A DNA stretch of 64,000 bases from assembly GCA_029267445.1 (NCBI GenBank), contig JAJUIU010000012.1, positions 1-64,000 on the forward strand, in the 5' to 3' direction. The notes below the pieces were generated by a model. That model had not been told where the DNA came from. It was given only the letters and a program-made list of their open reading frames with translations, and searched no databases. This DNA is from Rhodospirillaceae bacterium (lineage in GTDB: Bacteria > Pseudomonadota > Alphaproteobacteria > Azospirillales > Azospirillaceae). Made by a program: the position numbers and the translations under genes. Positions 47,732-49,334 of this stretch are shown here, one piece after another (position 1 is the stretch's first letter; each line of letters opens with the position of its first letter).

Positions 47732-48817
47732 ATGCCGACCCAGATCAATTACGTGCTGCCCGTGGAGCAGACCGACTGGCACGTGCCGGGCGGTGCCGAC
47801 GCCGTCTTCACCTGGGCCTACGACGACATGCGGGACGGGCTGCTGGGCCTCTACGACAAGGGCAAGCGCCAGCAGTGGAACGCGGCCGACCGGATCGACT
47901 GGTCCCAGGACCTCGATCCCGAGAACCCCATGATGCTACCGGACGAGTCCATGCCGATCCGCTGGACCAGCATGTGGGACCGCTTCACGGAGGCGGAGAA
48001 GCGGGCGCTGCGCCACCACACCCAGGCCTGGCAGCTCTCCCAGTTCCTGCATGGCGAACAGGGCGCCCTCATCTGCACCGCCCGCATCGTGCAGTCGGTG
48101 CCCGACATCGACAGCAAGTTCTATGCGGCCACCCAGGTGGCCGACGAGGCGCGGCACGTGGAGGCCTATTCCCGCCTGCTGCGGGAGAAGTTCGAGCTGG
48201 CCTACCCGATCAACAAGCACCTGAAGACGCTGCTGAACCAGGCGATCGACGACAGCCGCTGGGACTTCACCTATCTCGGCATGCAGGTGCTGATCGAGGG
48301 GCTGGCGCTCGCCGCCTTCCAGCGCATCCGCGACATGGCCGGCAACAGGCTTTGCGCCCAGGTGAACGCCTACGTCATGCAGGACGAGGCCCGCCATGTC
48401 GCCTTCGGGCGCCTCGCCCTGCGCGACTACTATCCGCAGCTGACCCAGAAGGAGCGCGACGAGCGGGAGGAGTTCGTGGTGGAGGCCTGCCACCTGATGC
48501 GCGACCGCTTCAACGGGGAGGAGATCCTGGAGCGGCTGGACATCCCCACCGCCCAGTACATGGCGGAGGTGGAGCACACGCCCGCCATGAAGCAGTTCCG
48601 CACCTTCCTGTTCAGCCGCATCGTGCCCACCATCCGCGACATCGGCCTGTGGGGCCCGCGCGTGCAGAAGGCCTACGAGGACATGGGCGTCATCATGTTC
48701 GCCGGCGTGGACAGCGAGGAGCTGTCGGCCCACGACCAGCAGGTGGCCGACCAGTTCGACGCGGAGAAGCGGATGGCGGACCTGGAGAAGATGGCCGTGC
48801 GCGGGGCGGCGGAGTAG
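47732..48817 (+). CDS. Ferritin-like diiron carboxylate protein (R2/AurF-type fold)
   Basis: This 361-residue soluble protein has the two-fold diiron carboxylate motif: Glu109 (HGEQGAL), Glu139xxHis142 (ADEARHVEAY), Glu189 (LIEGLAL) and Glu219xxHis222 (QDEARHVAFG). The two motif halves have equal spacings of 30 residues, giving a full set of iron ligands. No radical-bearing Tyr or partner R1 gene is evident, so it is not a standard ribonucleotide reductase. It may be an oxygenase or ligand-binding oxidase; the substrate is unknown. The gene stands alone, divergent from mscL. Confidence 0.85.
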   Translation: MPTQINYVLPVEQTDWHVPGGADAVFTWAYDDMRDGLLGLYDKGKRQQWNAADRIDWSQDLDPENPMMLPDESMPIRWTSMWDRFTEAEKRALRHHTQAWQLSQFLHGEQGALICTARIVQSVPDIDSKFYAATQVADEARHVEAYSRLLREKFELAYPINKHLKTLLNQAIDDSRWDFTYLGMQVLIEGLALAAFQRIRDMAGNRLCAQVNAYVMQDEARHVAFGRLALRDYYPQLTQKERDEREEFVVEACHLMRDRFNGEEILERLDIPTAQYMAEVEHTPAMKQFRTFLFSRIVPTIRDIGLWGPRVQKAYEDMGVIMFAGVDSEELSAHDQQVADQFDAEKRMADLEKMAVRGAAE

Positions 48818-48922
48818 GCGGCCCCTCACCCTGGCTGGGCTTGACAATATTCCTATAATCGGGCAGCCTGTCGGCGAAACTGCCCCGGACCCCGCTTGAC
48901 CGTCGGCTGCACTCCCCGGTTC

Positions 48923-49051
48923 CCGTGAAACGAAACGCGGCACCAGCGCGAAAGACGTTTCATGGCGTTTCATGGCGTTTCACATCGCCCGCGTTACGTG
49001 ACGCCCCGAACGGCGGAAAAACGTATCACGGCGTAACACGGCGTATCACAG
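48923..49051. repeat. Phased 10-bp repeat array between convergent genes
   Basis: Three adjacent units CGTTTCATGG, CGTTTCATGG, CGTTTCACAT (48956-48985) are followed 66 bp later by CGTATCACGG, CGTAACACGG, CGTATCACAG (49022-49051). An inverted copy CCGTGAAACG lies at 48923-48932. The two three-unit blocks agree in about 27 of 35 positions. The interval (48818-49055) lies between the 3' ends of two convergent genes and holds no other gene. The sites are in phase with about one helical turn. Confidence 0.75.
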
Positions 49052-49055
49052 GCCT

Positions 49056-49334
49056 TCACCGCTGCGCGAAGCCGATGCCGCCCGGATCGGCCGTCTCCTC
49101 CACCTGCACGCCGATCACCTTGGCGGCGGGCGGCCCCTTCCAGCACGCGTCCAGCATGGCGTCCACGTCCGCCGGGTCGCCTGCGAACACCGCCTCCACC
49201 GCCCCGTCCGCCCGGTTGCGCACCCAGCCGTCCAGCCCGCGCAGCCCCGCCTGCTCCACGGTCCAGCCCCGGTACCAGACCCCCTGGACCCGGCCGGTGA
49301 TGGTGACGCGCACGGCGCGGCGGCTGTCGGACAT
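49056..49334 (-). CDS. acyP: Acylphosphatase
   Basis: This 92-residue acylphosphatase hydrolyses acyl phosphates such as carbamoyl phosphate. It has the phosphate-binding loop VTITGRVQGVWYRGWTV with the catalytic arginine in WYRG, and GWVRNRADGAVEAVFAG with the catalytic Asn. The start at 49334 (MSDSRRAVRV) is chosen over a longer upstream form. It lies 85 bases downstream of the pccA stop side on the same strand. The family is small and of uncertain physiological role. Confidence 0.93.
   Translation of the reverse strand: MSDSRRAVRVTITGRVQGVWYRGWTVEQAGLRGLDGWVRNRADGAVEAVFAGDPADVDAMLDACWKGPPAAKVIGVQVEETADPGGIGFAQR

Follow-up and report, generated by a model that had tools for sequence, protein, structure and literature searches.

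A phased decamer array between convergent genes belongs to a family of small, apparently undescribed intergenic elements in Azospirillaceae

Results

The window analyzed here, a stretch of 64,000 nucleotides at the start of contig JAJUIU010000012.1 (assembly GCA_029267445.1, a Rhodospirillaceae bacterium of the Azospirillaceae), contains an array of ten-base words between a gene for an AurF-like diiron oxygenase family protein and a convergent acylphosphatase gene (Table 1). A previous reading of the sequence alone had described two three-unit decamer blocks 66 bp apart, with an inverted copy at 48923, between convergent genes, and each of these features was confirmed. The blocks had been said to agree in about 27 of 35 positions; the similarity holds, and the best 35-base agreement found was 28 of 35, starting at 48950. 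The inverted arm at 48923-48932 is 90% complementary to block A and to block B, and a further inverted arm, absent from that reading, precedes block B. The element also reaches 5′ beyond the reported start at 48923, to a promoter-like sequence at 48841, and as a whole (48841-49051) it takes up nearly all of the 238-bp convergent gap, with the acylphosphatase stop codon about 5 bp from the array end. A two-unit pattern allowing at most two mismatches matched 4 times in the window against a mean of 0.28 in shuffled sequence, and none of 100 shuffles reached 4.

Table 1. Features of the element in the window and its flanking genes.
Feature	Position	Strand	Sequence or basis
AurF-like diiron oxygenase family protein, upstream gene	47732-48817	+	Pfam PF11583, E 7e-17
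Promoter-like sequence	48841-48869	+	-35 TTGACA 48841-48846; -10 CAGCCT 48864-48869; 17-bp spacer
Conserved ATATTCCTAT within promoter spacer	48847-48856	+	comparison of copies
Leader	48870-48922	+	inverted half-word GCGAAAC at 48874-48880; comparison of copies
Left inverted arm, block A	48923-48937	-	CCGTGAAACG (48923-48932) plus AAACG, units 5 bp apart
Block A, three CGTTTCAY units	48956-48985	+	CGTTTCATGG/CGTTTCATGG/CGTTTCACAT, period 10
Left inverted arm, block B	48993-49003	-	GTTACGTGACG
A5 run	49017-49021	+	immediately 5′ of block B; T5 run on minus strand
Block B, three CGTWWCAC units	49022-49051	+	CGTATCACGG/CGTAACACGG/CGTATCACAG, period 10
Acylphosphatase, convergent downstream gene	49056-49334	-	Pfam PF00708, E 1.5e-22

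Pattern searches indicate that this bacterium has about 29 related copies, of which the array is one. In the 4.23-Mb genome the three-unit pattern gave 25 matches, which correspond to 24 arrays (two matches overlap) at about 19 loci, while the reversed pattern, used as a control, gave 0; a second word, GTCACCTT (class C), accounted for 9 further arrays. With the 221-bp region 48840-49060 as query, 14 places in the same genome matched at E below 0.001, and one place besides the query itself matched over almost the full length. Among 82 genomes of the family, three-unit arrays were found in four species of one sister genus, G048 (5 arrays), G064 (17), G065 (2), and G068 (13); G095 had one weak three-unit match and the remainder had no arrays. 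Class C was represented in a second genus, with dozens of overlapping matches in G088 and eight in G087, and in no other genome of the family except for one match in G009. In a sample of 385 genomes from across the class, class C had only five isolated, differently spaced matches, in three other genomes. These counts show many copies in a few species and none in most. A scan of 84,980 species, which may omit the record of this genome and those near it, returned unrelated decamer runs only, with a stricter pattern that the T/Y-variant arrays of the sister species would escape. Pattern matches in viral and other genomes were rejected as relatives because their flanks differ and they do not combine a left arm with a promoter. 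Several viral contigs that are related to one another (L076, L079-L081, L083, L084, L087) have CCGTAACACGCCGTAACACGGCGTAACATGTTACGG arrays, made of GTAACA/TGTTAC words, in a different setting.

A genome-wide search for the decamer and block had been proposed as a check, with a lack of further copies among the refuting conditions. Further copies were found both in this genome (24 A/B and 9 class-C arrays) and in six relatives, an outcome clearly opposed to refutation, and the idea of a new repeat family is supported; as far as sequence comparison goes, the existence of the family is solid. A literature search found no paper describing such a repeat, and the keyword-matched parts of a study of small RNAs in A. 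brasilense (PMC7685610) do not mention one, so that the copies apparently make up an undescribed family of small intergenic elements.

Comparison of the copies shows that most form a small module resembling a transcription unit, in which a conserved promoter motif, TKGACAAWATTCCTA, is followed by a leader and one or more inverted words, after which come at least three direct words in helical phase. All 13 occurrences of the motif in this genome lie upstream of an array, with two of the loci (L095 and L100), both missed by the final pattern script, assigned by comparison of copies. The -35 is TTGACA or TGGACA, with a conserved TTCCTA in the spacer and a -10 (YANNNT) about 17 bp on, and because this -10 is weak a generic sigma-70 scan called no promoter at the element. 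The first direct unit lies 94-154 bp downstream of the -35, and wherever a promoter was found it was upstream of the array on the same strand. There were several B-only copies, some of them directly downstream of a gene end, that had no recognisable promoter of their own. The sequence-only reading had contrasted the location between two gene ends with one at a promoter; this contrast does not hold, since the element has a promoter-like sequence of its own, 82 bp 5′ of the first arm, and similar arrays in the sister species are mostly upstream of start codons.

The same motif also heads the GTCACCTT arrays of class C, here and in the second genus. Words have the form GTNNCAY in classes A, B, D, and E and GTCWCSTT in class C; the class D word, GTTCCAY, was found in G068, and at one locus in this genome the words are GTCGCAC and the arm, GTGCGAC, matches them. 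From class to class the left arm changes together with the word. The left arms carry the word inverted; in class B they consist of two half-words that overlap, set 5 bp from each other, and the units of the 18 class-B arrays are invariant save for the central W position and two single changes, the W patterns over the three units being only AAT, ATA, and TAT. The leader is barely conserved from copy to copy in classes A and B. Complement-type unit changes were favoured in G088 and not in G087, and were left out of the evidence.

Spacing was exactly 10 bp at all 46 intervals between units of the A/B arrays, and in class C it alternated between 9 and 12 bp here and ranged from 9 to 12 bp in G088, with an average of about 10.5; both are as expected, on sequence grounds, for helical phasing on DNA, and the units are thus in helical phase as in a phased DNA-binding array. 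There was no arm-to-unit covariation within classes (class C, 9 sequences, P 0.99 and 1.0; class B, 18 sequences, P 0.43-0.91), which, for these few sequences, speaks against RNA or cruciform pairing; pairing of the arms in either form was rejected because arms matched units no better than shuffled ones. Because of the exact phasing and the lack of within-class covariation, the arrays look like DNA sites.

Other folding results concern RNA. A hairpin is strongly predicted in the class-C leader (mean z -2.18 over 24 copies; three control positions gave -0.01 to -0.49), directly 5′ of an almost invariant GGKTCTTG (GGGTCTTGGACA in most), and this predicted fold points to a real transcript. Plus-strand left-arm hairpins folded better than shuffles in some copies, with z of -2.0 for block A in the window and of -3 to -4 for L037, L038, L042, and L046. 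On the minus strand, block B may form a weak three-unit hairpin with G-U pairs that runs into T5 (49040-49022) and could act as terminator of the acylphosphatase gene, and AAT-type B arrays fold to a single hairpin ending at the T run, at about -9.5 kcal/mol in most. An intrinsic terminator common to all classes was rejected, as only class B can form the hairpin and classes A and C cannot. The T run was present in about 9 of 13 convergent copies and 3 of 6 other copies. No consistent terminator was found downstream of the arrays, and Rfam 15 covariance models gave sub-threshold hits and no gathering-score match for the window region and 15 class-C loci. A coding function was also rejected: an ATG before the sister-genus arrays opens reading frames, but unit variation, judged by eye, ignores codon phase and there is no conserved stop.

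With flanking genes called by a home-made codon-usage finder, so that distances are approximate, most arrays in this genome and in G088 end no more than a few dozen bp from the stop codon of a convergent gene. The distance was 2-51 bp at 12 of the 13 A/B loci with a convergent gene in this genome, and 1-23 bp at 11 of the 16 convergent loci of G088; most arrays in the sister genus were 12-240 bp upstream of a start codon. The neighbours that could be named are unrelated metabolic or housekeeping genes, among them phosphoglycerate kinase, trpS, prfB, dapB, glucokinase, glcF, and ribokinase. At one locus the element is present in G064 and G048 where at least six congeners have a gap of about 70 bp, and this comparison shows that the element can be gained, with at least one site gained in one lineage. 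What was inserted exceeds the element in length and differs in part between the two species, so the element ends are undefined at this site. Some sites are common to several species, and by this measure copies therefore also persist by descent. No terminal inverted repeats were seen in the copies; a target-site duplication was looked for at one empty site, where the boundaries are unclear. The Y1 transposase domain PF01797 had zero matches in this genome (G000) and in G064, G065, G068, G087, and G088 and one in G048, and an origin from REP/RAYT or IS200 elements was rejected because Y1 transposase is absent from nearly all array-bearing genomes. Origin from a plasmid, phage, or virus was likewise rejected, as plasmids and phages gave no element-wide match and only two short plasmid matches of 45-52 bases were seen.

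Discussion

The patterns detected are tentatively explained, at somewhat less than an even chance, by a dispersed, non-autonomous, probably transcribed intergenic repeat in which the array serves as a cluster of protein-binding sites in helical phase, with the array in the window as the 3′ part of one copy. In this reading a protein would bind the words as double-stranded DNA, cooperatively and head to tail. Once occupied, the array would control or block RNA polymerase coming from the convergent gene as well as from the promoter of the element itself, and the element would spread as a unit; transcription, protein binding, the effect on neighbours, and the mode of spread are all steps that we infer. 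We counted in favour of a binding array the number of copies against a control of zero, their patchy presence, the promoter motif that in this genome is exclusive to the elements, and the helical spacing, and in addition the class-B columns invariant except at W, the lack of covariation, the class-C hairpin, the placement at convergent stops, and the gained site. Counted against it were the undefined element boundaries, the lack of a promoter in some B-only copies, the few sequences in the covariation test, and the conserved promoter and leader hairpin, which a pure binding site would not need and which hint at an RNA product. Cooperative binding on one helix face, as first suggested for this array, agrees with the 10-bp spacing and the absence of arm-unit covariation, while no binding protein was found, which also counts against this reading. 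The candidate examined, a ParB-like gene sharing the promoter, was rejected as the array binder because its close copies are mainly in array-free genomes and no close copy is present here. ParB-family genes preceded by this TTGACAATATTCCTAT promoter without an array were seen in several sister-genus genomes, at L103 (G021), L109 and L101 (G057), and L105 (G076).

Alternatively, the elements could be a multicopy family of small-RNA genes in which the direct words are repeated protein-binding or base-pairing motifs in the RNA and the phasing on DNA is incidental. We consider this somewhat unlikely. The same-strand promoter upstream of the array, the class-C leader hairpin followed by its almost invariant motif, and the left-arm hairpins that beat shuffles in some copies all fit a small RNA, which the sequence-only reading had proposed among other roles, but there was no Rfam match, arms and units do not covary inside classes, no consistent terminator follows, the promoter is missing from some copies, and an RNA would not need an exact 10-bp spacing. 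Another, unlikely possibility is that the copies represent a new class of duplicating non-coding RNA/binding-site module, with one promoter type joined to different word arrays (GTTTCAY, GTWWCAC, GTTCCAY, GTCGCAC, and GTCACCTT) and arm and array changing together; if true, this would suggest recognition proteins or guides that switch word specificity while the architecture is kept.

It is also conceivable, and we think rather improbable, that the arrays are terminators or insulators at gene ends, with block B an intrinsic minus-strand terminator and the other classes blocking polymerase through a bound protein. An array that abuts a convergent stop codon leaves little room for another terminator, and both the terminator-like match on the minus strand of block B and the single hairpin of AAT-type arrays are consistent with this role, but the hairpin is weak and impossible for classes A and C, the T run is not clearly linked to convergent placement, and many arrays of relatives are upstream of start codons. 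Sites that organise the chromosome in the manner of ParB, Noc, SlmA, or MatP seem very improbable: class A words resemble parS half-sites (GTTTCAC is the parS half-site), and the arrays are dispersed on the chromosome, with all five G048 arrays on one 3.1-Mb contig, but words differ between classes within one genome, the repeats are direct where parS is palindromic, and most relatives have no arrays although all have ParB-family proteins.

Palindromes and transposon remnants are the usual kinds of dispersed intergenic repeat in bacteria. The BOX elements of Streptococcus pneumoniae are modular, orientation-specific, transcribed intergenic repeats in which the number of internal units varies and whose route of spread is unknown. 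The present elements are likewise modular, dispersed, intergenic, variable in unit number, and orientation-specific, but BOX is known from another phylum, and its description sets it apart by a different sequence and by units of about 45-60 bp in place of promoter-led, class-changing 10-bp words. Correia elements of Neisseria, which are MITEs, are also small non-autonomous repeats that bring promoter and protein-binding sequences to many loci, but they have terminal inverted repeats and TA duplications, neither of which was seen here. REP/BIME sequences with their RAYT, as generally known, share the high copy number and the frequent position at gene 3′ ends, but here there is no REP hairpin and, in the six genomes with zero PF01797 matches, no Y1 transposase. 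Direct-repeat operators and centromeres with units of about 10-11 bp, such as TorR/OmpR-type boxes and the ParR/parC system of plasmid R1, resemble the arrays in their short head-to-tail words in helical phase with a linked promoter. Here, however, the arrays are dispersed on the chromosome, with several word classes under one promoter type and no linked regulator or partition operon; a plasmid-borne parM/parR operon was not found, as the flanks examined are unrelated genes and there is no element-wide plasmid match. What is unusual is thus a promoter-led phased array of ten-base words, switching words between classes, set against gene ends, and present in few species while missing from close relatives. 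Such copies offer an unusual natural series in which to study the spread of a repeat that has no evident transposase, and the way in which a head-to-tail recognition code in DNA (or RNA) changes, and they would affect gene-end annotation and small-RNA maps in Azospirillaceae.

Several individual loci bring the elements close to other sequences. A ParA-type partition ATPase gene (NF041546; L033:1578-2213, G000 C13) is convergent with one element, and a gene for an HD-CE domain protein with atypical codon usage (L055:1653-2975, G000 C32) is beside another. Next to one element in G064 is a dispersed repeat unrelated to it, about 140 bp long (L143:1238-1379) and of the CCCTCTCCCG...GGGAGAGGG type, which has many copies in the sister genus g11. 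A 15-base stretch of the leader matches another dispersed repeat, GGACCCCCGGATCGGGGTCCGGGGCAGGCTCTCTCCC-like, found in L029, L030, and other G000 contigs.
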